Below are positions 1,572 through 45,544 of a DNA stretch of 56,444 bases, piece after piece. Source of the DNA: Natrinema salsiterrestre (GTDB lineage Archaea; Halobacteriota; Halobacteria; Halobacteriales; Natrialbaceae); contig NZ_JAMQOT010000014.1 in the NCBI RefSeq assembly GCF_029502005.1, positions 1 through 56,444 of the forward strand, in the 5' to 3' direction. The position numbers and the translations under genes were made by a program. The number at the start of each line of letters is the position of its first letter. Positions within the stretch are counted from its first letter, which is position 1. The notes below the pieces were generated by a model, which did not search any database, was not told the DNA's origin, and saw nothing but the letters and a program-made list of their open reading frames with translations.

Positions 1572-2609
1572 CTACTCTCGAGTCTCCTTCAGTCCCTTTA
1601 TGATAAATCTCTCTTCATCATCGACATCAGAAATGAAATCCATACCCGAGATAGCAAGATCGTCGTCAAGGAGACTCAGTACATCTCCAATTTTCCGGAA
1701 GTCGTCGAGTTTTATTTCCCATTGATCGTCGTCAGCATCGCCATCAACATAAACGTCTAAGTTCCAGTCAGAAACCAACTCTTCAACAATATCTCGAGTC
1801 AGGTTCTCGTATTTCCCGCGTTTTCTAATCCGACGCATTTGTCTCAGTGCGTTATCGCTATTGAGGATCGTTTCTTTGAATTTTGGATAATCAGCGATAT
1901 TTATGTTAGAATCCCTCAAATCAGAGAACACCTCGTTTGCGTCATTTTCGTACTCTGTGAAATAGTCGAATATTCTTTCAAAATTCCCGGGGTTGATGAC
2001 AAAAAAGGTATCATCGTAGTGTATGGCGTCAAATTTATCTGGAAGTGCCACAGGATTCTCCTTCAGTTTATTATATTCTTGATCGCCAAATGTCGTGACC
2101 TTCACTCGATAATTGCTCCCGACAATCTGCCGATTAGTGAATTTACGGAAGGCAACGAGGTCTGGACTGAAGTTATTCTTAATTCTGAATGCTTGAAAAG
2201 CAACGTTGCTCGTTGACGTGAAATCAGTCACGTCATTGATTGTGATGTGGTCTATGAAATCTTTGACAAGGTCCGTTCGGGGGATCTCATTATCATCAAG
2301 ATATTGAATGGGAACGGGAGTGTGGTTGTGGTTATCTACGTTATAGGGCCGGACTTGCCTCATTCCGTCGTCATCGCTCTCCTCGTCAGCACCAATCTCC
2401 GTGAGGAGGCTTTGTAGCTGTTCCGTGAGGGTTATATTTAGCTCCGTTAGAATGTTAGAATGAAATTCAACTTTTTCTGCCTTATAGTTTAGCTCGTCCT
2501 CAGCAGTTGTTCGACCTAATAAGAAATCACGGTAGTACTCATCAGGATCGCAATTAGCAGTCTCTTTTGCCTCGTTAAGAAGAATTTTCGCCTCCTCTAC
2601 AGAAGTCAT
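1572..2609 (-). CDS. kwaB: Kiwa anti-phage protein KwaB (DUF4868)
   Basis: This 345-residue protein is recognised as the DUF4868/KwaB family by its central segment (about residues 115-240). That segment has a block with AFQAFRIKNNFSPDLVAFRKF and, further on, DAIHYDDTFFVINPGNFERI. In Kiwa, KwaB is the DNA-binding effector that works with the membrane protein KwaA against phage. The length fits the family (about 310-350). The gene starts 2 bases after the kwaA stop, so the two are almost certainly co-transcribed. Base composition is clearly AT-richer than the chromosomal part of the window, which suggests horizontal transfer. Assignment rests on motif recognition and the adjacent KwaA-like gene. 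Confidence 0.8.
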   Translation of the reverse strand: MTSVEEAKILLNEAKETANCDPDEYYRDFLLGRTTAEDELNYKAEKVEFHSNILTELNITLTEQLQSLLTEIGADEESDDDGMRQVRPYNVDNHNHTPVPIQYLDDNEIPRTDLVKDFIDHITINDVTDFTSTSNVAFQAFRIKNNFSPDLVAFRKFTNRQIVGSNYRVKVTTFGDQEYNKLKENPVALPDKFDAIHYDDTFFVINPGNFERIFDYFTEYENDANEVFSDLRDSNINIADYPKFKETILNSDNALRQMRRIRKRGKYENLTRDIVEELVSDWNLDVYVDGDADDDQWEIKLDDFRKIGDVLSLLDDDLAISGMDFISDVDDEERFIIKGLKETRE

Positions 2610-2611
2610 TA

Positions 2612-3169
2612 CTAGACTGCGATGTAGACGCCATAACTTAATTTTACTGCTGAGACTTCGGCCGGTCTATCGTCAATACGGCCATTCACCAAAAGCGTCA
2701 TTTCCTCATCTTCTGTGCTCACATCATAGATGTTGTATCCTGCCAGCGCGAGAATGGGGTTTACATATAGATGGTTTGAACGAACTTGGATGATACCGAT
2801 CACAGCGAAGAAGATTATGAATGCTATCCAATTCACTACCTGTGATAGGTCAAGAACTACAAACGGGAAAATGTAGACCAGAATGTAGCTTGTCACAGCC
2901 TCATTCCGGTTGGTTGCATCAATAACATTCTTTGGCTCTGGCTCTTTGGATTTCCTTACATTTAATACAAGCCCTAGTGCTGTCAAAGATACCATAGATA
3001 ATACTAACCAAAAGACAGTAAGAATTGGCACTTCTGCTCCACCAACGAACGGGATATTCGATGGTGTTGAGGCTTGAACACCGATATGTTTGTAGGATAG
3101 AATCAGGTATAATGGGATAAACGAGCTAAGGAATATCCCCCATTTGAAGAGTGACCTGATTCTCGCCAT
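2612..3169 (-). CDS. kwaA: Kiwa anti-phage membrane protein KwaA
   Basis: This 185-residue protein has four predicted membrane segments at roughly residues 10-26, 47-70, 94-108 and 112-128. A short soluble C-terminal part begins RSNHLYVNPILALAGYNIYD. The pattern FPF...LDLS in the third helix and the NP..AL.GY.IYDV motif after the fourth match the KwaA family. In bacteria KwaA is the membrane sensor that responds to phage infection and engages KwaB. An AT-rich TTTTAC element about 27 bases before the ATG could be the promoter of the kwaAB unit. An archaeal host implies sensing of a different kind of virus entry. Confidence 0.8.
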   Translation of the reverse strand: MARIRSLFKWGIFLSSFIPLYLILSYKHIGVQASTPSNIPFVGGAEVPILTVFWLVLSMVSLTALGLVLNVRKSKEPEPKNVIDATNRNEAVTSYILVYIFPFVVLDLSQVVNWIAFIIFFAVIGIIQVRSNHLYVNPILALAGYNIYDVSTEDEEMTLLVNGRIDDRPAEVSAVKLSYGVYIAV

Positions 3170-3687: not shown

Positions 3688-3922
3688 ATGTGATTGAACA
3701 GACTTGATCATACATGCCCTGTACGCGGGTGATTTGATCTTGTGTCGCTCACCTTCGGGCATACTTCCTACGCAATCCTCGTTCGCCTGTTTCGTTCCCC
3801 TGTGTGGATGCGATTCTCCAACTTACACTGTTCCCCGGGATCAATTCTCTCCCGTTCCGTACAACTCATCAGTCTGAACGCAACCGATTGGACTTATACG
3901 CTCCATCCCTTATTCTGAAGCA

Positions 3923-4471
3923 GTGGTTGAGACGACAGTTGTGAACGTAATCGGGACAATTACATATCAGCAAGAAATTGCGCTGGGTGCTCTAGCAGAT
4001 ACACTCTCACAGCGTAATGAGATCACTAGTGTCACTTATGAACCCGCGGAGAACCACTGGTTACAGACCCGGTTTGCGCCCGATAATACGTATGTCGCTT
4101 TTTACAGAAGTGGTCGATGTTCTATTGTAGGCTCTAATTCGGTCGACCACATTTATGAGATAGCGGACTGTGTCAACACGGTGATTCGGGATATCCTTGA
4201 TTTCAATTACGAACCGAAGGTGGAAATTAGCAATATCGTCGCTACTGCGGATATTGGATCTTCAATTCACTTGGAAACTCTCGCACTCGAACTTGGAATG
4301 AATCACGTTGAATATGAGCCAGAACAGTTTCCTGCACTCATGTACCGTGGCGAGAATTATACTGCGCTAATTTTCGCGAGTGGGAAAGTTCTCTGTACAG
4401 GATTAACAAAAATGGAAGAGACAACTAAAGCAGTTGAGGATCTAGCTTCCAGACTGAAAGGAGTCAAGTGA
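3923..4471 (+). CDS. Degenerate TATA-binding-protein-like protein
   Basis: This 182-residue protein has the two-repeat architecture of archaeal TBP. The second repeat (about residues 95-180) is well conserved: LETLALELGMNHVEYEPEQF, then PALMYR and IFASGKVLCTG. The first repeat keeps VVNVIGTITYQQEI and FYRSGRCSIVG, but the segment corresponding to YEPEQFPGL reads YEPAENHWLQ, so one DNA-kinking Phe is lost. The GTG start at 3923 follows a TATA-like CTTATAC by about 25 bases. It converges on a second TBP-like gene at 4519-5064. It may bind DNA asymmetrically, interact with TFB, or have become a non-canonical regulator. It is unlikely to be the housekeeping TBP. Confidence 0.7.
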   Translation: MVETTVVNVIGTITYQQEIALGALADTLSQRNEITSVTYEPAENHWLQTRFAPDNTYVAFYRSGRCSIVGSNSVDHIYEIADCVNTVIRDILDFNYEPKVEISNIVATADIGSSIHLETLALELGMNHVEYEPEQFPALMYRGENYTALIFASGKVLCTGLTKMEETTKAVEDLASRLKGVK

Positions 4472-4518
4472 TTCCATCCGTCACATAGTGAATGGCTACG
4501 TCAACTTAGCTACTTTTG

Positions 4519-5064
4519 CTAATCTGTAACTTCACTTAGTTTTTCTTGGAGGTTATCGAACGCCCTAAATGCGGTTTTCTCATCGGGAGATCCGGGGACC
4601 ACTACTCGCCCCGACGCAAACAGGAGAAACACAGATGGTAACTCAGTCGGCCGATACACCAATCCAGAAAATTGTTCAGGCTCATACTCTGTCTGCTCCA
4701 GCCCTAGTTCCAGCGCTAACCGCGTTAGATCCAGTTTCAGATTTAGATCCCCAACCAATACCACATTTTTCACTTCAAATTCAGGGTCTATACCTTCGAT
4801 ACCGAGGCGGTTCAATGCCTCTACCAGCCATTCATACACCCCTTCAACTTCCGTAATTGACGTTGCGCCGCTAATATGATAGCTCCCCGATTCATACACG
4901 GTTACGAGTGGTCCCCCCTCTTGTTCTCGCAGATAGACTGTCGGGGTCTGGTACCCGTCAGTATTGTAATTTACTTCTGCGGCATCGATATCATCTCCGA
5001 CAGCCGAGATATCCAATTGACGCCCTAGTGATCCGGCAGCAACTACATTTACGACTTCTGGCAT
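4519..5064 (-). CDS. Degenerate TATA-binding-protein-like protein in operon with restriction gene
   Basis: This 181-residue two-repeat TBP homologue begins VVNVVAAGSLGRQLDI, a typical TBP start. Repeat 2 (about residues 96-175) retains LTRLALELGLEQTEYEPEQF and LLFASGRVVVPG. Repeat 1 is degraded: the YEPEQFPGL segment reads YNTDGYQTPT and the LIFxSGK segment reads VTVYESGSYH, so both DNA-intercalating Phe positions appear lost. The ATG lies 6 bases after the stop of the large restriction-methylation gene on the same strand, so the two form an operon. It may regulate that operon or be part of its mechanism. The housekeeping TBP role is unlikely. Confidence 0.7.
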   Translation of the reverse strand: MPEVVNVVAAGSLGRQLDISAVGDDIDAAEVNYNTDGYQTPTVYLREQEGGPLVTVYESGSYHISGATSITEVEGVYEWLVEALNRLGIEGIDPEFEVKNVVLVGDLNLKLDLTRLALELGLEQTEYEPEQFSGLVYRPTELPSVFLLFASGRVVVPGSPDEKTAFRAFDNLQEKLSEVTD

Positions 5065-5070
5065 TCAGAG

Positions 5071-8013
5071 TCACATAAATTGCGACAGATCGGTATCACT
5101 CTCATTCCCTTCCGAGCCAATGGTGAACGTATGCGTGCCGTATTCCTCGAGCGTATCCACTTGTTCAACGAGGACCTCAGACGACATCCCCTTCTCGTTC
5201 CGTCGATTCGTCACAGCTTCAGTTAGTTCTTGAAACTCATCGACAGGAACATCGATCTGTGCAGCCTCTAAGACCGCTTCATCTAATCGAGTTTGTGCAC
5301 CTTCTTCATCAGCTTCGAACGCTCGGTATGCGTCCGCAATCTCTGCTCGCATATCCTCACTCAATTCACGCACATCAAGCGCTGGGACGCTCATCACTTC
5401 ATATTTCATAATCTCCAGCATCCCACGCCCCTCATTTCGACCCCACGTCTCAACAACGGCTTGATACACTGTCGAATTCAAGTATCCGAGCAGCGCCCAT
5501 TTATCTACTTCTGACTTCACGTTCAGACAGTATAGCCGATCATTCGCTACCATTCCATCGTTCCGACTGGCGAATACGCGATACTTGAATCCTTTCGGAT
5601 GTATAATGTCGGGGCGATCAATCTCACCGAGATCAAACCAGACAGACCGACTCGCACACGTCCGCCGCTCATTGATTCCTTGGGCTTCCCCTTCCCGGAT
5701 GTAGTCGAGAACAGGGCGATGGCCGTCACTCTCCAGTGAATCCTTTACTCGCTGCTCAACGTCGGATTGCTCGAGACCCCCTTTGGAACGGACCTTCTCG
5801 ACGTAGTCGTGCATATCCAGCACGTACAACTCCGTCGTATCCTCGGTGAGCGGATCTCCCTTCTCCATCTGCTTGATCCACTTTACCATCGGCGTAACGA
5901 ATTGGGAGTCGATCCCACGCTCGTCGATCTCCTCTTTGTCGATGTAGAAGAACTTGTTTGCTCCACTCGTCAGCCCACGCTCTGCATTAGATAACAATTC
6001 CTCCAAGTTCACCATCGTCGGGTTCTCGAGTAGTTTGATGAACGTCTGGGGCGCGGTTAGGTAGTGACGGATCTTCTTCGTATCTCGATCCATGATCTCT
6101 CCCTGTTGCACCGCAACTGTACGGTACGTCTCCCGATTCCGAACGAGCATCTCTGCCTCGTGAGAGAGATCAATCGGATATTCAACGGTGTCAAGGATAT
6201 CCTCCACCTCCATACTGTCCTTGATCTGGATGAACTCCGCCACGTTCTCCCGACGCTCCTCCTCATCACTACATTTCTCAAGCAAGATGAGGGCGCTGTC
6301 AACAAACGCATCCTCGAACGCACGCGCGCTGAATCCGACGACAGCCTCGAGCTTGTATTGATCGTAGACAAACCCTTGGAAGTCCTCCCCGTACCCAGTC
6401 ATCATCCACTTCGTCGGAATGATGAATGCTAATCGACCTCCCTCATCAAGGAAATTCGTACCATGTGTAACAAAGTATACATAGGCATCAGACCGCTTGC
6501 TAAGCCGCATATCCCCATTGTAGAACGGCGATGCTCTCCCATCCCCAAATCGCTTCAGGTGGTTGCGGAAATGCTCCTTGTTCGGATACAGACTTCCCTG
6601 ATCAATATACGGCGGATTACCGATCACAGCATCGAACGTACCTAACACATCCTGCTCCTCGTCATCAATCCGAGACGATTCGAGGTACTGCGTCTCAGGA
6701 TCGATATTGAAGAAACTGTCGTGGAAGAGGTGTAGGCGATCTGTCTTCTCCGAAATGTTCTGACTCGCAAGATTCAACGCTGTCAGATGTAGCGGGAATC
6801 TATTGATGTCGACGGCCACGAGACGGTCTACAATCTCCTGATGCGATGCATTCGGTGCCAGATGGTTGAGCCGCTTGTAAGCCTCAACAGTAAACGTCCC
6901 ACTCCCTGATGCAGGATCTAAGACACGAGGTTGCTCCTCACCGTTCTCCTGAATCGCCCATTCAGAGATCGTCTGCGCGATCTTTGGATGCGTATAGAAC
7001 TGACCGAGCGCCTTCCGCTCCTCAATCGGGATGAGTTCCTCGTAAATCTCCCCAAGGAGGTCCTCATCCAACTCCACAATCGATTCTGCCTCGATGTTAC
7101 TGATAAAGTCCTGTAGATTCCGCAACGTCTTCTTATTCTGCGGAAAGCCCGCAAAGAGACTAGCCCCACTATCGAAAATCGGTTCGTAGTCGATCTCCTC
7201 TACAATCGTCTCGAACTGGTTCTGAAGGTGACGCTCAAGATTCGAGAGCGTCGTATGCTCGTGCAGCGAATTCAACTCGAACCCGCTTTCCGTCTCAATC
7301 TCCCGAACCGTGTCACCCACCTCTGGATCATACTTTGCCTTCGTCTTCTCACGAACAACCTCGTAGAACAGCACCTTGTTCGTCAGCAGATACGCGAACT
7401 GCTTTCCAGCTACCTCAAACTGCTCATCATCATCAAGGCTCCCGTAGTCGTTCTCCTGCACCCACGTCTCAAACTCCTGCGTGAAGCGCTCGTTCCGTCC
7501 ATACTTTTTCTCCGCGAGTGCAGCATAGGACGGCCAGATAGAAGAATGGAAACTGCGAAGAATACCAACAAGACGGTCACGCTCAGACTGGTCCGGTAAC
7601 GAAGCCTCCTCATGGACGTGCTCAACTACTCCCAGTAATTGCGGGATCGCTTCAGAGATATCTGCTTCACGTAGATTGAAATAATAGAAATCTACGTCAG
7701 CCATCTCGATCTCGCCCTGATCGTGGAATAAGAAAAAGTCGTTTGAATTGCATGTAGCATAGAATTCGGCACCCAAATCGTCGGCGTACCCACGCGCTTG
7801 CTTGACCACGTCCTTCTCGCGAGGGTAGATATCGTCTCGCTTGACCTCGATGACGATCTCCCCGTTCAGCGCACTAGGAATGTAGATATCTGCGAATCCT
7901 GATTCCGTCGATTTCTCGGTTACTGGCTCATCAAACAGCGTGTCGTTCTCATCGATGTGGTCCAGTAGACGAGTGTAGAGCAAACCATGGAAAGCCGCCT
8001 CCTTCTTCGGCAT
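5071..8013 (-). CDS. Type IIG-like restriction endonuclease/N6-adenine methyltransferase
   Basis: This 980-residue single-chain protein has three parts. The N-terminal PD-(D/E)xK nuclease fold shows D42 in FADIYI and E56-x-K58 in IVIEVK. A helical linker spans about residues 120-335. The N6-adenine methyltransferase shows GQFYTHPKIA (337-346), SAM-binding DPASGSGTF (366-374) and catalytic NPPY (466-469). The C-terminal third resembles a target-recognition domain (FYIDKEE, DIIHPKG, LLGYLNSTVYQ). This arrangement is that of type IIG enzymes, which cut and methylate with one polypeptide. A BREX PglX-type methylase is less likely because a nuclease motif is present and no BREX partners are nearby. 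A TBP-like gene follows 6 bases downstream. Confidence 0.85.
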   Translation of the reverse strand: MPKKEAAFHGLLYTRLLDHIDENDTLFDEPVTEKSTESGFADIYIPSALNGEIVIEVKRDDIYPREKDVVKQARGYADDLGAEFYATCNSNDFFLFHDQGEIEMADVDFYYFNLREADISEAIPQLLGVVEHVHEEASLPDQSERDRLVGILRSFHSSIWPSYAALAEKKYGRNERFTQEFETWVQENDYGSLDDDEQFEVAGKQFAYLLTNKVLFYEVVREKTKAKYDPEVGDTVREIETESGFELNSLHEHTTLSNLERHLQNQFETIVEEIDYEPIFDSGASLFAGFPQNKKTLRNLQDFISNIEAESIVELDEDLLGEIYEELIPIEERKALGQFYTHPKIAQTISEWAIQENGEEQPRVLDPASGSGTFTVEAYKRLNHLAPNASHQEIVDRLVAVDINRFPLHLTALNLASQNISEKTDRLHLFHDSFFNIDPETQYLESSRIDDEEQDVLGTFDAVIGNPPYIDQGSLYPNKEHFRNHLKRFGDGRASPFYNGDMRLSKRSDAYVYFVTHGTNFLDEGGRLAFIIPTKWMMTGYGEDFQGFVYDQYKLEAVVGFSARAFEDAFVDSALILLEKCSDEEERRENVAEFIQIKDSMEVEDILDTVEYPIDLSHEAEMLVRNRETYRTVAVQQGEIMDRDTKKIRHYLTAPQTFIKLLENPTMVNLEELLSNAERGLTSGANKFFYIDKEEIDERGIDSQFVTPMVKWIKQMEKGDPLTEDTTELYVLDMHDYVEKVRSKGGLEQSDVEQRVKDSLESDGHRPVLDYIREGEAQGINERRTCASRSVWFDLGEIDRPDIIHPKGFKYRVFASRNDGMVANDRLYCLNVKSEVDKWALLGYLNSTVYQAVVETWGRNEGRGMLEIMKYEVMSVPALDVRELSEDMRAEIADAYRAFEADEEGAQTRLDEAVLEAAQIDVPVDEFQELTEAVTNRRNEKGMSSEVLVEQVDTLEEYGTHTFTIGSEGNESDTDLSQFM

Positions 8014-9272: not shown

Positions 9273-10838
9273 TCACATAATGCCTGCGTGGGTCAGGTCG
9301 CTTGAGGACGTGTCGTCGTACATCGCCCGCACGAAGTCGTATAATCCCTTCTCGATGTCGTCGCCATCGTTCAGATTCTCGGATTTGGCGACCCCGACAA
9401 GAGCTTGTTTGGGTGGCTTCCAATCAGATTTGAACGCATCGTAGTTATCACGGGCGTCCATGCAAAGCTTCGCAAACTCGATGTCCGACAGTTGCTTCAG
9501 CGATTCCTTTCCAGAGTCCTCGCAACTGATGTAACCTTCACAGACGGCGACGAGATGGAGTGCGTTGCCTCCAGAGCCATGCCCATTGTGATAACAACGC
9601 CACATCTGGCCGTCACCTGTGACTGCGATATTGTTCTTCCTCGAATTGGCACCGTGTTCGGGATGGCCACCACGATACTCAGTGCCGACTTTGTGCGAAT
9701 CGATAATCATCTGCGAGCAGTCCGCACTATAGTACTTCGACCGCTTACCCGACGATCCAGAAAAGTCGCTAGACTCAGACTTCCGCGCGTGTTCTTGCGC
9801 GTATTCGTCGGCTGTCTTCTCCCACTCGTGATACTCGTCGAGGATCTCCTCGACAACTTCATCCGCGCGTGCAACGTCGTTCGGCAACTTTCCGATAAAG
9901 TCGCCGGTCATCGCCGCGAAGCGGCTAACCTGATAAATCTCGACTTCAGGCTCGTCATCAAGGGCGTCAATCCCGTCGGAGTTGAGCGGCTCGTCCAGTT
10001 TGGTCATCGGGAGGGGGTCCTCCACAACAACGAACGTGTGAAGCCCGGTGCCCGATGTGGAGACCTCGGTGACGCTGTTCAGGCGTTCGAGCCACTCGAT
10101 GACCTCGGGAAGGATCTCGTCAGACTCTGGGTTGCGCACGTCATCCCAATCAATGAACAGCAGAACCTTGTCGTCATCGTCGATGCTCTCTTTGGCGGCA
10201 GGGAGCAGGTAGGCGGGCGACGCTTTGCGGCCCTCGACCTTCTGCTGACACGCGGAGCAGTCGTCTCCGTCGCAGTCGCAGTCGATGTCTGGCGTATCGA
10301 GATTATCCCATAACCCGTCGTCAGTATTGAGACGGTCGGCCCAAGTGCACGCGACTTCGAAGGCACGTTCAGGTCGCTCGTCTGCATCAAGGTCAGAGTT
10401 CCATAGCGCCTTTTTGAGCCCCCGATGCGTCCACGGTGCACGTGGAGCCTTGAGTCCGCTCAGCGCGACGAGCCACTCGCTGCGAGAGGTCATATACGCG
10501 GGCCACGGTTGGTCGTCGGCGACTGTCAACACCTTAGGGAGGTCGGTCGTGCCCGTCTCGATGGGTTCCGTACGGGCGGGCTCATCATCATCATCAGCGT
10601 CGAGCGTAGCCCTATCGAGGTTAAACGTATAGCGCGCATCGTCCCCGTCGCCATGTTGCTCGAGGACGCCATCCATAACCGCTCGTTCGACTGTGCTGCG
10701 GTGGCCGAACGTTCCCCCGGCATCTGAAGCGACATCAGCGAGGGCGTTCTCGATGTCCGCAAAACGCGCGTTGAACGGGTCGTCCGCGTTTTGCCAAATG
10801 TGCTGCTTGACGGCGTCCCAGTCGATTTCGAACGTCAT
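9273..10838 (-). CDS. Archaeo-eukaryotic primase-polymerase-like replication protein
   Basis: This 521-residue protein starts at the ATG (10838) that overlaps the helicase stop as ATGA. A Zn-binding-like CDCDGDDCSAC stretch precedes the catalytic region. AEP-type motifs are present: acidic FIDWDD, then STSGTGLH (sxH-like), then EIYQVSRFAAMTGDF (Arg of motif III). A C-terminal segment with HPEHGANSRK...WRCYHNGHGSGGNALHL resembles a CHC2-type primase zinc finger. Together with the adjacent SF1 helicase this is a primer-synthesis and replication module of a plasmid or virus. The motif reading is by eye; a plasmid Rep role is the main alternative wording. Confidence 0.7.
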   Translation of the reverse strand: MTFEIDWDAVKQHIWQNADDPFNARFADIENALADVASDAGGTFGHRSTVERAVMDGVLEQHGDGDDARYTFNLDRATLDADDDDEPARTEPIETGTTDLPKVLTVADDQPWPAYMTSRSEWLVALSGLKAPRAPWTHRGLKKALWNSDLDADERPERAFEVACTWADRLNTDDGLWDNLDTPDIDCDCDGDDCSACQQKVEGRKASPAYLLPAAKESIDDDDKVLLFIDWDDVRNPESDEILPEVIEWLERLNSVTEVSTSGTGLHTFVVVEDPLPMTKLDEPLNSDGIDALDDEPEVEIYQVSRFAAMTGDFIGKLPNDVARADEVVEEILDEYHEWEKTADEYAQEHARKSESSDFSGSSGKRSKYYSADCSQMIIDSHKVGTEYRGGHPEHGANSRKNNIAVTGDGQMWRCYHNGHGSGGNALHLVAVCEGYISCEDSGKESLKQLSDIEFAKLCMDARDNYDAFKSDWKPPKQALVGVAKSENLNDGDDIEKGLYDFVRAMYDDTSSSDLTHAGIM

Positions 10839-12640
10839 TCTGTCATCACACCCGCTGCAGGGAGATACTCGTCCATGAAGGGGAATGCACCTCGCACAAC
10901 GACCGTCTGCTCTTTCGCGCGTGTCAGTGCGACATACCACACGCGGTCCTCATTGATCGACATCTTGAGATTGGATCGAGTTTCGCTTGCGATGCGGTTG
11001 GTGATCCCATCGTAGACAAATACCCGGTCTGCCTCCGCGCCTTTGCTGGCATGGATCGTGCGCAGGATCGGTGTATTTTCGAGCCCGTGGTCTTCTTTGC
11101 CGATTTCGACGCCGACAGTGGGTTCATCATTGTAGCTTAGTGCGTTCGTGATGACATCCCGGGGGAGTGCATCCTCACCCTGTCGCTCGGCTAACATTGT
11201 AACTGAAACTGGCCCGTTTGTGTAGTGGGACCAGAACGTGTCGTTAACGAGGGGATTGAGTTTGCTGATATGAACAGTATGCCCATCTCGAGACCACTCA
11301 GTAGCCATTGCTTTCACGACAGACCGATCATAGTCGAGCGTCTCGGAGCGTGCGTAGTTGAGAAGTTGCACTGCCTCTTTCCCGTTGAGCTTGAGATCGT
11401 CGTCTGGTGTAGCCCCTTCGAGACGCTTGAGTACGTTGTACAGGTGGCGACGGCGGTCATAGTACTGCCAGCATCCAACTGTATTCTTTTGCGCACGGAA
11501 TATGATCCCTGTGCGCTTGAGCCCGCTCGCGATTGCTTCCTGCTCAAATCGCGCACGTGTTAGATACATTAATGTTTCATCTTCCCCGACGTACTCCTCG
11601 TAGAGCATGTCAGGGGTGCCATACTGCCCTATGGGCGAGGACCATTCGCTAGTTGCGTCGTTGTGTCTGAATCGTGGCGCGTTTACAATCTCGATAGCGT
11701 CCTCGTTGTCTTCACAGTCGAACGTGGGGTTATGTGGCGTATGGTATCCATGCAGGACATTTGCCGCCGCATCCCACAGGGATGGGGGAACGCGGTGTGT
11801 TGTGTCGAGTTGAATTTCTGGGAGGTCGACCTTGTTGTAGTGTTCTGGGCTCGCACCATCGTGGAGATTCACAACCTGCTGCGGGTCCCCAAGGATGATC
11901 GCGATCTCGGCGGAGTCGATCCACATCTGTCCGAGTTCGTGGAGTAATGGGTAAACATCGTGATACTCGTCGAAGACGAGGACGGGTACACCGGGTGTGA
12001 TGTTGTGCTCAATTGCACGTTCGATGTACTCGAAGTAGTTGAAGAGTTTATTCGACTCTTTGTACCCGTCCCACGCCCGTTCGAACTCAACGAGATCAGG
12101 ATGGCTGGGCCAGCTTCGTCGCAGATCCTCGATCATCGGACACTGCTCTGCATTGATCATCTCAAGCTGGTTGTGCTTGAGCCATTTGTAGACACTAAAC
12201 AGCAGTGCAGCCCGATCTTCGTTACTATTCGAGTTCACGACATAGGGGACGCGGTACTCGGACTGCATGAAATCATTATAGTCCTGCCAGTTAGGAGTTT
12301 CACGCCCATCGAAGTGGTCACTCTGCAACCGCCGACATGCAGCATGGACTGTAGCGACCAGTTCAGTATCGCCAGATTTGGGGTGCTGTGCTTCCTCATC
12401 GTCGATGATATCCCACTCTGTCTCTGCCATCCGATCAATTAGATCCTCTGCAAGGGCGCGACGATATGTGATCCAACACAGTTCACGTGGGAGTTCGTAG
12501 TCGTGATCGGCGTCGAGTACTTGCACTCTGCACAGGCCTTGCGACGATTTGCCCGTCCCGGGTGGCCCATTGATCTTCACACTTTCATCAACTGGCACTT
12601 CGTCGCGACCAACGATGGGGAACCGTGGGATATCAGTCAT
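10835..12640 (-). CDS. SF1 (UvrD/Rep-like) DNA helicase
   Basis: This 601-residue protein has Walker A GPPGTGKS at residues 25-32 and Walker B VLVFDEYHD. Further helicase motifs are ILGDPQQVV (motif III), TTHRVP (motif IV region), TIHASKGAEADRVFVYDG (motif V) and VWYVALTRAKEQ (motif VI with its Arg). It unwinds DNA using ATP. The start at 12640 overlaps the preceding gene's end by 8 bases, and its own stop overlaps the primase-like start by 4. The three genes are therefore translationally coupled, as expected for a replicon module. Confidence 0.85.
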   Translation of the reverse strand: MTDIPRFPIVGRDEVPVDESVKINGPPGTGKSSQGLCRVQVLDADHDYELPRELCWITYRRALAEDLIDRMAETEWDIIDDEEAQHPKSGDTELVATVHAACRRLQSDHFDGRETPNWQDYNDFMQSEYRVPYVVNSNSNEDRAALLFSVYKWLKHNQLEMINAEQCPMIEDLRRSWPSHPDLVEFERAWDGYKESNKLFNYFEYIERAIEHNITPGVPVLVFDEYHDVYPLLHELGQMWIDSAEIAIILGDPQQVVNLHDGASPEHYNKVDLPEIQLDTTHRVPPSLWDAAANVLHGYHTPHNPTFDCEDNEDAIEIVNAPRFRHNDATSEWSSPIGQYGTPDMLYEEYVGEDETLMYLTRARFEQEAIASGLKRTGIIFRAQKNTVGCWQYYDRRRHLYNVLKRLEGATPDDDLKLNGKEAVQLLNYARSETLDYDRSVVKAMATEWSRDGHTVHISKLNPLVNDTFWSHYTNGPVSVTMLAERQGEDALPRDVITNALSYNDEPTVGVEIGKEDHGLENTPILRTIHASKGAEADRVFVYDGITNRIASETRSNLKMSINEDRVWYVALTRAKEQTVVVRGAFPFMDEYLPAAGVMTE

Positions 12641-13550
12641 CGGAGTCCCCTCCGTCGAAATCGGCAAAGTCGCGGTCAAGCTGCCAGAACCGCATTTGTG
12701 TGCTTGCAGCGTCCTTGACCTCGGACTGTCGCGGCCCGCGTTGGTTGCGGTTGTCCATTTCACGGGCGAGGTCCTGCATGTCGATCTCGTAATCAGTGAC
12801 AATGAACTGGATTATTTTGTTCGGAATCCACACGTAATCCGCGTCTTCATCTGGCAGGTATATCTGCCGGGATGTAGCCGCGTCGTCGATCTCGCTCATC
12901 ACTTCTCGGCGATTGAGGTCTGCCTGCAGGTCCTCAATTGCGAGGGTTCGTTCGCCAGTTTCTTCGCGTTCTACCTTGTTCTCGCGAATAAACAGGCGCA
13001 CGTAGAGATACCATGCGAGGTCACATGCATCGGAGGTCTCGCGGGCGACGACATACTCCGATACGTCGTGGATTTCGTCTGCGAAGTGATTGAGAGCGTT
13101 GTGCTGTCGTACCGTCTCCACGCGTTCTCCCGTATCTAGGACCCATGTATAACGTGCGTCTGCGCTCGCATCAGTAGGCACATGTTTGATGACTTTTTCA
13201 ACGTGGTCATCAAGGAACACGTCTAGTGGGATCACAGTGGGTGACTCGTCGCCCCCGGAATCTTCGTCACCGACATCACTCTCGAGATCGGCGAGAGTGT
13301 CCGCGAACGTTTCCTCGAGAGTGGACTTTTTCACTGTCGCGTTCCCAGCGTAACTCTTGAGTAGCGCGTCGATTGTCGTGCGCTCTGTGTTCCCTGCATG
13401 GAAACACTCAGCGAGCGCGACTGCGAAGTTATTCGCGAGGCGGCCCATCTCTGCTGGGTTATTGTCAGTGTCCTCTAACTTCGCATTGTATTCTTGCCAA
13501 ATACTTTTAGCATCGGTACTTCCATTCTCGTTGGGTGTCGTTGAACTCAT
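12633..13550 (-). CDS. Unknown first gene of the replicon operon
   Basis: This 305-residue acidic protein has no recognised domain. The N-terminal third looks helical. A highly acidic linker lies at about residues 88-105. The C-terminal half has YLPDEDADYVWIPNKIIQFI and a run of charged helices. It leads the operon helicase-primase, overlapping the helicase gene by 8 bases. A TATA-like CATATATCAATAC lies about 20-25 bases before the ATG, so the message is probably leaderless. A role in replication initiation, copy control or partition is plausible from position only. Confidence 0.55.
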   Translation of the reverse strand: MSSTTPNENGSTDAKSIWQEYNAKLEDTDNNPAEMGRLANNFAVALAECFHAGNTERTTIDALLKSYAGNATVKKSTLEETFADTLADLESDVGDEDSGGDESPTVIPLDVFLDDHVEKVIKHVPTDASADARYTWVLDTGERVETVRQHNALNHFADEIHDVSEYVVARETSDACDLAWYLYVRLFIRENKVEREETGERTLAIEDLQADLNRREVMSEIDDAATSRQIYLPDEDADYVWIPNKIIQFIVTDYEIDMQDLAREMDNRNQRGPRQSEVKDAASTQMRFWQLDRDFADFDGGDSDD

Positions 13551-14474: not shown

Positions 14475-15461
14475 TCAGATATTGTCTAAGTGGTCGCGTC
14501 GTTGTTCCATTTTCTCGCGCTCAGTCCTGCGGTCGTAATGTTGGTCCAGCACGTCGGTACTGACGTTTGCGCGGTCACTGACAACTGTTTCTGGCATCTC
14601 GTTCCTGAGGAAGTGCGTGATGCTGCCGCGTCGGAAGGCGTGTGCGGCGACAGATGACGGGCATTCGTAGCTGTAGTTGTCGTTGCATGCGGCTTTGCAC
14701 TCGTCTGTATCGCGATTATGGGGGCACTCGTCGCTATGCCAGCATGGTCTGGTCAGCCTGTAACACCAGCCCCTGACTGTGTTACGGGAAATTCGCCCCG
14801 CTTTGGTTGTCAATAGTGGGTCTCGTCCGTGTTCATCGGTGACTTCGCACCGTTTTTCAGTGATGTATTCGTCGAGTACCCGGCATGTCTCGTCACTGAG
14901 CGCGATCATGCGCTCTCCTTCATTTTGATTCTTAAGCGTGGTTCCGCGCTCGGGCCTATGCTCAACGGTCAGGTATTGTTCGCCAGAGTTGTAGTCGTCG
15001 AGATCGAGACTGCGGACGGCCCCAGTTCTCATTGAGGTCCGCCACAGAAGTAGGATAAGCGCGTGAGAACGTGACGCGAATTCATAGCGATCTAATCGCT
15101 CGAGAATTGCATGTGCAACATCTGCTGTTACTTCGTCGTCGCGCACGTTTTCCTTGCCTCGAAGTGTGGGACTGTCTGCAACGTCGACTAGGCCTTCATC
15201 GACTACGTCGAGACGGGTCATATATCTCAGAAATCCTCGAAATGTATCGATGTGGGACTTCAGTGTGGGCTTCGCTAGTCCCTGTTTGCGGAGGTGTTGC
15301 TTGAACTCGTGCACATCTTGTTTTGTGAGTTCAGATATGCTTCGCTCTCCCCACCAGTCTTCAAATTTCGCGAGTCGGTACTGGTAGGATTGTACTGTTG
15401 TATGCGCACAGTCGGCTTCTCGGTGGTCGAGGTAGATCGTGGTGGCTTGGTCTGGCATCAT
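14475..15461 (-). CDS. XerC/D-type tyrosine integrase
   Basis: This 328-residue integrase has both domains. An N-terminal SAM-like DNA-binding domain spans about residues 5-85 (TVQSYQYRLAKFEDWWGE, LTKQDVHEFKQHL). The catalytic domain follows: Arg I in MRTGAVRSLDLDD, the HxxR box in AHAFRRG, and Tyr in LDQHYDRR. A cysteine-rich insert with CWHSDECPH and CKAACN may bind zinc. The second codon is also ATG (15458), so the exact start is uncertain. It faces inward from the right edge of the island, and a tRNA-like structured element starts about 120 bases upstream. It is the best candidate for the element's own integrase. Confidence 0.88.
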   Translation of the reverse strand: MMPDQATTIYLDHREADCAHTTVQSYQYRLAKFEDWWGERSISELTKQDVHEFKQHLRKQGLAKPTLKSHIDTFRGFLRYMTRLDVVDEGLVDVADSPTLRGKENVRDDEVTADVAHAILERLDRYEFASRSHALILLLWRTSMRTGAVRSLDLDDYNSGEQYLTVEHRPERGTTLKNQNEGERMIALSDETCRVLDEYITEKRCEVTDEHGRDPLLTTKAGRISRNTVRGWCYRLTRPCWHSDECPHNRDTDECKAACNDNYSYECPSSVAAHAFRRGSITHFLRNEMPETVVSDRANVSTDVLDQHYDRRTEREKMEQRRDHLDNI

Positions 15462-39547: not shown

Positions 39548-41101
39548 ATGACCGAGGAGAGCGCTCACGACGGACCCGAACGCGGGCCGGACGTCGCTCC
39601 CGACGGCGGTGAGCGATCCAACGGATCGCGAGCCTCGTCGGATCTCCGATCCGACGGCGGTTCCGACGAGGGTGTCGTCCGACGGGACCGCTTCAGCGGC
39701 GGCCCCGCCCGGAGCTTCCTCTCCTCGCTCGACGCGGACGAACGCATTTTCGAGGCCGACCTCGAGGTCGACCGCGCGCACACGGTCATGCTCGCCGAGC
39801 AGGGTATCATCGACGACGACGTGGCCGGACGGATTTTGACCGCCCTCGACGCGATCGAGGTCGACGGTCACGGGTCCCTGCCCGACGGCGAGGACGTCCA
39901 CGAGGCCATCGAGACGGCCGTCATCGAGGGGGTCGGCGCGGACGGCGGGAAGATGCACACCGCGCGCTCGCGCAACGACGAGGTCGCTGCCTGCATCCGG
40001 TATCGCCTGCGCGAGGACGTCCTCGAGGCGATCGAGACGACGCTCGCGCTGCGTGAATCGCTGGTCGACGTCGCCGAGGCGCACACCGAGACGATCATGC
40101 CCGGCTACACCCACCTCCAGCCCGCTCAGCCGACCACCGTAGCACACTGGGCGCTGGCCTACGAGGGCGCGGTTCGCCGCGACACCGAACGGTTGCTCGA
40201 GGCGTACGACCGAATCAACGAGTCGCCGCTGGGCGGTGCCGCCTTCGCGGGGACGACGTTCGACATCGACCGCGAGCGCACCGCCGAGTTGCTCGGCTTC
40301 GATGGACTCGTCGAGAACTCGATGGACGCCGCCTCGAGCCGGGACTTCCTGCTCGAGACGGTGCAGGCGCTGTCGACGCACGCGACGACGCTGTCGGGGC
40401 TGGCGGAAGACGTGATCATCTTCGCGAACCGTGGCTTCGTCACCTTGGCGGACGACTACTCCTCGACGTCGTCGATCATGCCCCAGAAAAAGAACCCGGA
40501 CACGCTGGAACTCGTCCGCGCGGTCGCGGGCGACGCGGCCGGCGGCGTGCAGGGGCTGACGACGACGCTGAAGGGACTGCCCCGCGCGTACAACCGCGAC
40601 CTCCAGCGGGCGACGATTCACGCCTGGGAGACCGTCGACGCGGTCACCGAGGCCAGCGAGGTCGCGGCGGGGGCGGTCGCCACCGCCGACTGGAACGAGG
40701 AGACGCTGGCCGCCGAAGCCGGCGAGGGGTTCTCCACGGCGACCGGCGTCGCGGATCTGCTCGCGGCGAACGGCTTGCCGTTCCGGACGGCGCACGAGTT
40801 GGTCGCGATCGCAGCCGACAACGGGGCGGACTACGACGCGCTCGAGGCCGCCGCACAGGAGGTGCTCGGCGACTCCCTCGAAGCGTACGTCGACCCCGAA
40901 GCCGTCGAAGACGCGCTCGATCCGGCAACGAGCGTCGCGAGCCGCGATTCGCGGGGCGGTCCCGCCCCGGAAGCGGTCGCGACCCAACTCGAGTCGGCGA
41001 GCGAGGCGCTCGCGGCCGACGGGGACGCGCTCGCGGACGCGACCGACGCGCTCGAAACGGCACGCGAGACGCTCCGCTCGGAGGTGAACGGCTATGTCTG
41101 A
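39548..41101 (+). CDS. argH: Argininosuccinate lyase
   Basis: This 517-residue enzyme splits argininosuccinate into arginine and fumarate. Signatures are KMHTARSRNDEVAACIRY, GYTHLQPAQPTTVAHWALAY and the catalytic-Ser loop SSIMPQKKNPD. An acidic N-terminal extension of about 40 residues precedes the usual start RRDRFSGGPARSFLSS. It is coupled to argG and followed by a GC hairpin that probably ends the argGH transcript. Confidence 0.96.
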   Translation: MTEESAHDGPERGPDVAPDGGERSNGSRASSDLRSDGGSDEGVVRRDRFSGGPARSFLSSLDADERIFEADLEVDRAHTVMLAEQGIIDDDVAGRILTALDAIEVDGHGSLPDGEDVHEAIETAVIEGVGADGGKMHTARSRNDEVAACIRYRLREDVLEAIETTLALRESLVDVAEAHTETIMPGYTHLQPAQPTTVAHWALAYEGAVRRDTERLLEAYDRINESPLGGAAFAGTTFDIDRERTAELLGFDGLVENSMDAASSRDFLLETVQALSTHATTLSGLAEDVIIFANRGFVTLADDYSSTSSIMPQKKNPDTLELVRAVAGDAAGGVQGLTTTLKGLPRAYNRDLQRATIHAWETVDAVTEASEVAAGAVATADWNEETLAAEAGEGFSTATGVADLLAANGLPFRTAHELVAIAADNGADYDALEAAAQEVLGDSLEAYVDPEAVEDALDPATSVASRDSRGGPAPEAVATQLESASEALAADGDALADATDALETARETLRSEVNGYV

Positions 41102-43535: not shown

Positions 43536-44399
43536 ATGACGACGGTGGTCAAAATCGGCGGCGCTCGAGCCGTCGATCCCGAAGGCGCACTTGCCGACGT
43601 TGCCTCGCTCGTCGACGACGGCGAGGATATGGTCGTCGTTCACGGCGGCTCGACCGCCGTCGACGAGACCTTGGAGGAGCTCGGCGAGGAACCCACCTAC
43701 GTCGAGACGCCCGGCGGCGTCGTCGGCCGATTTACCGACGAACGGACCATGGACGTGTTCAAGATGGTGATGCCGGGCAAGCTCAACACCGATCTGGTGG
43801 AGAGCCTGCAGAACGAGGGCGTGAACGCGGTCGGCCTCTCCGGCACGGACGGCAAACTGCTCGAGGGCAAGCGCAAATCGGCCGTCCGCGTGAAAGAGGA
43901 CGGCAAGAAGAAGATCAAGCGCGGCGACCACTCGGGCACGATCGAGTCGGTCAACGCCGACTTGCTCGAGACGGTCATCGCGGGCGGCTACACGCCCGTC
44001 GTCTCCGTTCCCGTGCTGGGGAAGGAGAAAGACGGAGAGTACACCGCGGTCAACGCCGACGCCGACCGCGCCGCCGCCGCGATTGCGGGGGCGCTCGAGG
44101 CCGATCTGGTCGTCCTCACGGACGTCTCGGGGATCTACGAGGATCCCGACGACGAGTCGACGAAGATCGATTCGGCCGCGACGCCCGCCGAGTTCGAGGC
44201 CGTCAAAGACGCCGCCGAGGGGTTCATGACGAAGAAGGTCATGGCCGCCGAGGAGGCCCTCGAGGGCGGCGCAGCGTCGGTGATCGTCGCGAGCGCCAAC
44301 GCCGACGAGCCGATCACGAGCGCGCTCGCGGGCGAGGGGACGACGCTCGAGCCCGGCGTGCTCGCGGACGACGAACCCGAACCGGAGGCCACAGAATGA
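43536..44399 (+). CDS. argB: Acylglutamate/LysW-glutamate kinase
   Basis: This 287-residue amino-acid kinase phosphorylates the gamma-carboxylate of LysW-carried glutamate. It has VVKIGGARAVDP and VVVHGGSTAVDETLEELG for phosphate binding. GLSGTDGKLLEGKRKSA and KEKDGEYTAVNADADRAAAA follow, and the ATP-binding end is VVLTDVSGIYEDP. Basic KEDGKKKIKRGDH may contact the acidic carrier LysW. The ATG follows the argC stop by one base, and its own stop overlaps argD. Confidence 0.92.
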   Translation: MTTVVKIGGARAVDPEGALADVASLVDDGEDMVVVHGGSTAVDETLEELGEEPTYVETPGGVVGRFTDERTMDVFKMVMPGKLNTDLVESLQNEGVNAVGLSGTDGKLLEGKRKSAVRVKEDGKKKIKRGDHSGTIESVNADLLETVIAGGYTPVVSVPVLGKEKDGEYTAVNADADRAAAAIAGALEADLVVLTDVSGIYEDPDDESTKIDSAATPAEFEAVKDAAEGFMTKKVMAAEEALEGGAASVIVASANADEPITSALAGEGTTLEPGVLADDEPEPEATE

Positions 44400-45544
44400 G
44401 CGATCACGACTTCGTTTCCGGCGGCAAGCCGATCGGTATCGAACGCGGCGAGGGACCGTTCCTCTACGGGACGGACGGCACGGAGTATCTCGACGTCGGC
44501 GCGAGCTACGCCTGTACGCCGCTGGGCCACTCCCATCCCGCGGTCGTCGACGCGGTCCAGGAACAGGTCGGCGACCTGACGTTCGTCGACTCCTCCTATC
44601 CCGTCCAGTCGCGCGAGGACGCCTACGCGGCGCTCGTGGCCTCGACACCGGCGGATCTGGACCAGGCCTGGTTCTGTAACTCCGGGACCGAGGCCAACGA
44701 GGCCGCGCTGAAGTTCGCCCGGTCCGCGACGGGAGCGTCGACGATCGTCGCCGCGACCCGGTCGTTCCACGGCCGGACCATGGGCTCGCTCGCAGCGACC
44801 TGGAAGGACGAGTACAAGAAACCCTTCGAGCCGCTGGCCGGCGACGTCGAGTTCGTCCCCTACGGCGACGACGAGGAACTCGCGGCCGCCGTGGACGACG
44901 AGACCGCGGCCGTCATCCTCGAGCCGATCCAGGGCGAGGGCGGGATCAACGTCCCGCCCGCGGGCTACCTCGAGACCGCCCGCGAGGCCACCGACGAGGC
45001 CGGCGCGGCGCTGATCTTCGACGAGGTCCAGACCGGCATGGGTCGGACGGGCTCGATGTGGGCCTGCCAGAACGCGGGCGTCACGCCCGACATCCTCACG
45101 ACGGCGAAGGGACTGGGCAACGGCCTGCCCGTCGGCGCGGTCGCGGTGCGGGACTGGATCGCCGACGGCGCGGCCTCCCACAACGCCACGTTCAGCGGCG
45201 GCCCGGTCGTCACCGCGGCCGTCCACGCGACGATCTCGACGTTGGTCGAGGAGGAGTACCCCGCCCACGCCGCCGAGATGGGCGACTATCTCACGTCTGA
45301 ACTCGAGGCCGCAGTGGGCGACGACGTGCGCGAGGTCCGCGGCGAGGGTCTGCTCGTCGGCGTCGAGTTGAAACGCGGTGCGAACCGCGTCGCCCGCGAT
45401 CTGGCGATCGAACAGCAGGTGTTGGCGCTGCCGGCCGGACGAACCGTCCTGCGGCTGCTCCCGCCGCTCGTCCTCGAGCGGTCGGACGCCGATCGAGTAG
45501 TCGACGCGATGGTCGACGTCCTCGGATCGAACGACGACTCATGA
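44396..45544 (+). CDS. argD: Acetylornithine/LysW-semialdehyde aminotransferase
   Basis: This 382-residue class-III PLP aminotransferase converts the LysW-bound semialdehyde to LysW-ornithine (or lysine). Motifs are NSGTEANEAALKFAR, SFHGRTMGSLAAT, the PLP-contact LIFDEVQTGMGRTG, and Lys in TTAKGLGNGLPVGAV. It overlaps argB by 4 bases and argE by 4 bases, so expression is coupled. Confidence 0.93.
   Translation: MSDHDFVSGGKPIGIERGEGPFLYGTDGTEYLDVGASYACTPLGHSHPAVVDAVQEQVGDLTFVDSSYPVQSREDAYAALVASTPADLDQAWFCNSGTEANEAALKFARSATGASTIVAATRSFHGRTMGSLAATWKDEYKKPFEPLAGDVEFVPYGDDEELAAAVDDETAAVILEPIQGEGGINVPPAGYLETAREATDEAGAALIFDEVQTGMGRTGSMWACQNAGVTPDILTTAKGLGNGLPVGAVAVRDWIADGAASHNATFSGGPVVTAAVHATISTLVEEEYPAHAAEMGDYLTSELEAAVGDDVREVRGEGLLVGVELKRGANRVARDLAIEQQVLALPAGRTVLRLLPPLVLERSDADRVVDAMVDVLGSNDDS

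Follow-up and report, generated by a model that had tools for sequence, protein, structure and literature searches.

The two TATA-binding protein (TBP) paralogues P1 and P2, encoded in the 56,444-nt stretch of Natrinema salsiterrestre DNA analyzed here (the window), belong to a conserved group of TbpC-like haloarchaeal TBPs that is linked to DNA-methylation defence. We propose, at a probability of roughly one-half, that such altered TBPs are dedicated transcription factors controlling methylation-based defence, i.e., an archaeal counterpart of the bacterial C proteins. Most of them have a restriction-modification (RM) gene, of one of several unrelated types, within 3 kb, a neighbourhood that is rare for canonical TBPs.

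Fold, intercalating residues, and conservation of P1 and P2

P1 (3923..4471, plus strand, 182 aa, GTG start) and P2 (4519..5064, minus strand, 181 aa) are encoded by intact frames, match solved TBPs in the PDB, and share 29% identity; the PF00352 domain spans both repeats in each of them (6.4e-36 and 4.1e-31, respectively). The comparison of predicted structures with TBP that was suggested in an earlier note on this DNA bore out the family assignment. The AlphaFold (AF2) model of P1 is a complete TBP saddle (pLDDT 85.6; TM 0.73-0.85 against solved TBPs), and the model of P2 (pLDDT 80, with weaker confidence around residues 30-37) has the same order of elements. Both proteins contain the saddle of two repeats over about 180 aa that marks the family, and they belong to it by fold and descent, although they are not canonical TBPs. 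About 27 nt ahead of the GTG codon of P1 lies a TATA-like element, GGACTTATAC (3890..3899, plus strand), which, as read from the sequence, is its probable promoter, of the leaderless type. The same element precedes the P1 orthologue of Natrinema gari (L073), and the orthologues at L074-L076 carry GGACTTTTC upstream.

In the alignment of 132 TBPs, the columns that hold F99, F116, F190, and F207 of yeast TBP read FFFF in 75 proteins; the remaining 57 are referred to as altered. Most of the latter have the pattern xYFF, with Tyr at the second position and Tyr, Asn, His, or other residues at the first. In this alignment P1 is NYFF (N44, Y61, F136, F151) and P2 is YYFF (Y38, Y57, F132, F149); both intercalating Phe of repeat 1 are gone in each protein, the repeat-2 pair is kept, and neither has the four Phe of canonical TATA bending. 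The earlier note had counted one lost repeat-1 Phe in the first gene and both in the second, which holds for P2 and has to be corrected for P1. Preservation of a repeat-1 Phe at a shifted position was ruled out, as F60 of P1, one residue off, aligns with a non-intercalating position. The C-terminal repeat is indeed kept in both proteins, with YEPEQF...YR and F.SG[KR] found in repeat 2. YEPEQF carries the glutamates of the C-terminal stirrup that contact TFB/TFIIB (two positions, defined in PMC7221094), and these glutamates are retained in 51/57 altered TBPs. Among 21 YYFF proteins, residues Y42, Y46, R48, T57, and Y59 (reference numbering) are invariant, and so are most positions of the repeat-2 motif EYEPEQF.

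Two RM-adjacent TBPs (L152, 8082-8645; L153, 8026-8640) have the pattern AFSY, the repeat-2 Phe and the TFB glutamates being lost as well; judging by these residues, they could be a further specialized branch that no longer uses TFB. Outside haloarchaea, within the same phylum, nearly all checked TBPs were FFFF, and the single YYFF protein (L251) had no match to our RM panel in its 1.5-kb flanks.

TbpC-like TBPs, which have no N-terminal Phe pair, were described in 2014 (Becker et al.; PMC4230888), when tbpC was reported as not expressed and dispensable in Halobacterium; its deletion in strain NRC-1 gave no phenotype (PMC2121645). P1 and P2 agree with that description in being two-repeat TBPs that have lost the repeat-1 Phe pair and kept the repeat-2 pair, and they cluster with Halobacterium tbpC among the non-FFFF proteins. 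The 2014 work, however, included neither genomic context nor function and considered a loss of function, whereas here we observed linkage to methylation defence, purifying selection, and a paired NYFF + YYFF arrangement at one locus. VNG_RS12735 is the only full-length TBP of pNRC100 without the repeat-1 Phe pair and is therefore tbpC by the 2014 definition (PMC4230888). It groups on the tree with RM-linked YYFF proteins, and its gene shares 4 bp with the helicase gene of an operon encoding a methylase and a helicase (L242 5477-14533, pNRC100). The methylase gene of this operon is in two pieces, matching residues 1-697 (90% identity) and 734-1432 (32-36% identity, two segments) of the HLAC protein (H. 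lacusprofundi), and an ISH27-2 transposase sits between them. This interruption may be the reason that tbpC is neither expressed nor needed in NRC-1, and the difference in identity suggests that the specificity half of the methylase may also have been swapped.

The description of P1 and P2 as half-decayed did not stand. Nine full-length orthologues of P1 were found in a search of 145 haloarchaeal genomes (53-77% identity), and the closest relatives of P2 are 45-49% identical. Compared with the Natrinema gari orthologue, P1 has a pN of 0.15 and a pS of 0.72, and its repeat 1 (pN 0.09) is more constrained than repeat 2 (pN 0.19), i.e., repeat 1 is under the stronger purifying selection. Function-less pseudo-TBPs decaying under relaxed selection, an option raised for TbpC in 2014, would agree with the loss of the repeat-1 Phe and with the silent, dispensable tbpC of Halobacterium (PMC4230888). 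Nonetheless, the P1 orthologues have intact frames, dN/dS is low with repeat 1 as the more constrained half, the substituted residues are invariant inside subclades, and the IS element in the NRC-1 methylase gene can explain the silence of tbpC there; we consider decay highly improbable and, on orthologue conservation and substitution rates, reject it.

Linkage of altered TBPs to DNA-methylation systems

The 132 TBP genes were picked by similarity to P1 or P2, or as canonical TBPs, blind to their neighbours, and RM genes were searched for with HMMs that had been built up from a set of RM proteins (the RM panel), with a cut-off of 3 kb from the TBP gene. Within this distance an RM gene was found for 47 of the 57 altered TBPs (45/55 if the window is left out) and for only 2 of the 75 canonical ones (45/55 vs. 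2/75, Fisher p = 1.3e-22). Counted by locus, the linkage was observed for 39/46 altered and 2/74 canonical TBPs. Since the panel was partly derived from the same TBP neighbourhoods, the genes flanking the TBPs were also scanned independently against Pfam. The 100 immediate neighbours of altered TBPs are dominated by N6_Mtase (21), Eco57I (18), ResIII (16), and HSDR_N (7), whereas N6_Mtase, Eco57I, and HSDR_N are absent from the 25 families listed for 143 control neighbours (Cdc6, HisG, UPF0020, and similar), with ResIII in 5/143. Among the altered-TBP loci without a panel match, L098 and L104 are BREX loci, L099 encodes an Hma/DUF1156-type methyltransferase, and L085 is Type I. The window's own genome has six TBP genes; the three canonical ones, with four intercalating Phe, have no RM gene nearby, and the three with an altered repeat 1 (P1, P2, and one on contig C20) are all located at RM genes.

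Haloarchaeal TBP expansion is usually attributed to the stress response. The altered TBPs might be general global regulators of the kind known from the remaining TBP paralogues of haloarchaea, found with RM genes only because plasmids or islands carry both. Such paralogues are numerous and have condition-specific roles (PMC4230888, PMC2121645), and many altered-TBP loci are on plasmids; however, canonical paralogues on contigs shorter than 450 kb do not travel with RM genes (RM neighbour in 1/31), and the linkage of the altered TBPs is immediate, often overlapping, and persistent across enzyme types and viruses. We therefore regard this explanation as quite unlikely, and hitch-hiking as the sole cause of the linkage is disfavoured by the same small-contig comparison. 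On the tree, canonical and altered TBPs part at a single split (branch SH-aLRT 85, with the placement of P2 unsure), so that Phe loss and RM linkage are statistically inseparable and the RM association characterizes a single diversified clade.

In the window, P1 and P2 face each other between KwaA/KwaB and a type IIG (Eco57I/N6-MTase) gene, as the earlier note had it, the neighbours of the pair being KwaAB, the IIG enzyme, and one 115-aa protein. The IIG enzyme (5071..8013, minus strand, 980 aa; Pfam N6_Mtase 8e-24, Eco57I 1e-20, and TaqI_C; PADLOC REase_MTase_IIG 5e-32) is the putative operon partner of P2, which starts 6 bp past the IIG stop. It is 45% identical to an IIG enzyme of Halosimplex aquaticum, whose gene is split by a transposase gene and ends 49 bp ahead of a P1 orthologue. 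The Kiwa genes kwaB (1572..2609, minus strand; PF16162 5.8e-17, PADLOC KwaB) and kwaA (2612..3169, minus strand; PADLOC KwaA 1.4e-28, NCBIfam KwaA 4.7e-23) had no match at any other scanned TBP locus. Of the enrichment near restriction or Kiwa genes predicted by the earlier note, the restriction/methylation part was thus confirmed (45/55 vs. 2/75) and the Kiwa part was not. Judged by the scanned loci, a Kiwa partnership is rejected, the position of Kiwa next to P1 and P2 is incidental, and the link of the altered TBPs is to DNA-methylation-based systems, not to Kiwa or defence in general.

Positions 835-1437 hold an integrase-like fragment, and the segment 9273-15461 includes genes for an SF1/UvrD-type helicase (10835-12802) and a tyrosine recombinase (14475-15461); by these features the left ~15.5 kb of the window looks like an integrated mobile element. 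Ordinary metabolic genes lie to its right, e.g., Lyase_1/ASL-type (39548-41101) and class III aminotransferase (44396-45544) genes. The window contains no tRNA, and no long direct repeat was found at the ends of the putative element.

Partner systems, gene order, and viral loci

The partners of altered TBPs comprise Type I, single-chain Type IIG, DISARM-like methyltransferase + SNF2, BREX, and Hma-like systems. Type I HsdMSR systems with a TBP were found in Haloplanus, Halobaculum, Halorientalis, and Haloquadratum plasmids, often together with an SprT/YgjP-like gene; where a Type I operon faces a P1-type TBP, it always ends with this zinc metalloprotease gene (L073-L077, L113-L116). A DrmMI-like methylase and a DrmD/BrxHII-like SNF2 helicase accompany the TBP in H. 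lacusprofundi, Halolamina, and Halorientalis. The TBP subclades track the system type, with separate clades for BREX (SH-aLRT 98), methylase + SNF2 (99), and P1 (99). As in the window, two altered TBPs are present in 11/46 loci, and the pair usually comes from different subclades. Very divergent or fragmentary third TBP-like ORFs were seen near the same RM loci (L077 5100-6059, L080 5232-5816, and L096 11221-12054).

Among the 41 altered TBPs located within 700 bp of an RM/helicase gene, 18 are downstream on the same strand, with gaps of mostly -22 to +61 bp, whereas 7 are upstream, 9 convergent, and 7 divergent. Gaps of -4 to +8 bp behind an RM/helicase gene were found at L083, L084, L089, L092-L094, L108, L109, L112, and in the window, and a 4-bp overlap with the preceding RM gene is common. 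At the same time, the TBP is an optional companion of RM genes: a hand count gave one at 14 or more of the 52 strong HsdM loci, BREX PglZ loci have one within 1.5-kb flanks in 2/20 cases, and none was found within ~7 kb of the window-IIG relatives (10/10). At the BREX loci L212 and L221 a TBP-like ORF directly adjoins pglZ.

The main alternative to a regulator places the TBP inside the defence complex as a physical subunit: with no role in transcription, it would serve as a DNA-bending or DNA-holding module through which the methylase, helicase, or nuclease engages DNA more readily. The 4-bp overlaps and the co-directional last-gene position suggest matched production, the subclades follow the system type, TBP genes occur in TOTE/TALON conflict systems (PMC12458937), and the L152 and L153 proteins remain at RM genes in spite of having lost the repeat-2 Phe and the TFB glutamates. 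On the other hand, these glutamates are retained in 51/57 altered TBPs, systems of the same kind exist without a TBP (as in the ten IIG relatives), the partner enzymes are structurally unrelated, and several TBP genes run towards or away from the RM operon on the opposite strand, all of which makes a subunit unlikely. A fixed RM subunit is further weakened by the lack of TBP within ~7 kb of the ten IIG relatives and in the 1.5-kb flanks of most PglZ loci.

Two Haloferacalesvirus genomes, HRTV-9 and HJTV-2, have a TBP next to their own RM genes. The YYFF TBP of HRTV-9 (L239) follows a type IIG gene at a distance of 16 bp, and HJTV-2 (L238) has a GAFF TBP near a methylase and an Eco29kI-type nuclease. 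A peptide-pattern search of IMG/VR viral contigs gave no homologues, although haloviruses in GenBank do have TBPs. An anti-viral sensor or decoy, which would bind viral promoters or viral TBP/TFB and thereby block viral transcription or trigger defence, is favoured by the position of altered TBPs in defence islands and by the existence of haloviral TBPs. Yet both viral TBPs are associated with RM genes of the virus itself, which points to RM + TBP as the unit on either side of the conflict, and altered TBPs are linked specifically with methylation systems instead of with Kiwa or defence at large; such a sensor or decoy is improbable. Of the three roles offered in the earlier note, the operon regulator fits best, given the operon position, the TFB glutamates, and the optional presence, while the decoy and the sensor received no direct support.

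Proposed control of RM operons and its meaning

As a dedicated regulator, an altered TBP would use its intact repeat 2 to hold half of a TATA element and to contact TFB through the two glutamates, and its rebuilt repeat 1 (Phe to Tyr/Asn, with a polar DNA face) would weaken or redirect promoter choice. Expressed as part of the RM operon (P2) or from an abutting gene (P1), it would set the level and timing of methylase/nuclease transcription, e.g., on entry into a new host, in the manner of bacterial C proteins but via the basal initiation machinery. For P1 and P2, TFB binding, the promoter target, and the direction of regulation are given as we infer them. The dedicated-regulator reading is favoured by the RM linkage, the operon coupling, the retained TFB glutamates, the purifying selection on repeat 1, the invariant YYFF residues, and the sharing of one kind of TBP among several unrelated enzyme types, and the absence of TBP near the ten IIG relatives and its presence at only part of the HsdM loci are as expected of a regulator. 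The same IIG relatives also count against it, as they show that the TBP is not required; so do the arrangement of P1, which points towards the IIG gene and carries a TATA of its own, and the absence of a tbpC deletion phenotype in NRC-1, although the tbpC operon has an interrupted methylase gene there.

A further point against the regulator reading comes from the methylase + SNF2 operons, where an ordinary-looking TATA is overlapped by a palindrome. The methylase + SNF2 + TBP operons (L117 488-730, L118 629-871, L120 611-853, and L086 3643) begin with a 63-aa ORF that has no Pfam family and appears AbrB-like by eye, and the conserved inverted repeat TAGTCTAAGTAAAGACTATAT ahead of this ORF overlaps the TATA element. 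The ORF may be these operons' own repressor, in which case TBP may not be their main regulator. A special promoter common to TBP-linked operons was not found: only the TATA-like element of P1 orthologues was seen, and the methylase + SNF2 palindrome is more likely tied to the small ORF.

C proteins and BrxR/CapW, the WYL regulators of BREX and further defence systems (a BREX-system regulator is described in PMC9122589), are small DNA-binding factors that accompany some, but not all, RM and BREX systems and are thought to control their expression. Altered TBPs likewise are encoded with part of the RM/BREX systems, which they may control. They differ in nature: C proteins and BrxR/CapW are helix-turn-helix/WYL proteins, whereas the altered TBPs are paralogues of a basal transcription factor and proposed regulators. 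As P1 has the TBP fold in place of the helix-turn-helix of C proteins, the parallel is proposed at the level of function only. The animal TBP-like factor TRF2/TLF has lost the TATA-intercalating residues, kept the TFIIB-type contact, and serves special promoters; its likeness to altered TBPs is an analogy only, TRF2/TLF being eukaryotic and without a defence link.

The earlier note knew of no described defence system using TBP-like subunits, but TOTE and TALON conflict systems already include a TBP gene (Aravind et al., 2022, as cited in PMC12458937). TBP occurs there with TPR-OB/CSD proteins, whereas at the loci studied here it accompanies RM, BREX, and DISARM-like enzymes; no TPR-OB/CSD gene was recognized beside the window pair, and neither TPR nor OB is among the Pfam families listed for altered-TBP neighbours. 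Haloarchaeal and archaeal RM surveys and a 2026 BREX survey do not mention TBP, and the paper naming TbpC-like TBPs (PMC4230888) does not mention restriction. A partial literature search gave no earlier report of a TBP-RM link, though an earlier one is possible; the association is strong and apparently undescribed.

More broadly, and at odds slightly short of even, we suggest that haloarchaea and some of their viruses have made a basal factor into a portable control module for Type I, IIG, DISARM-like, and BREX defence, with TbpC-type TBPs, sometimes from two subclades at one locus, setting the timing of methylase and nuclease. The link to methylation defence provides a concrete, testable function for TbpC-like TBPs, which have been without an assigned role since at least 2014, and TBPs with a changed repeat 1 offer a handle for finding uncharacterized defence loci. 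If the proposal is true, general transcription factors would have been recruited as controllers of defence systems in archaea.
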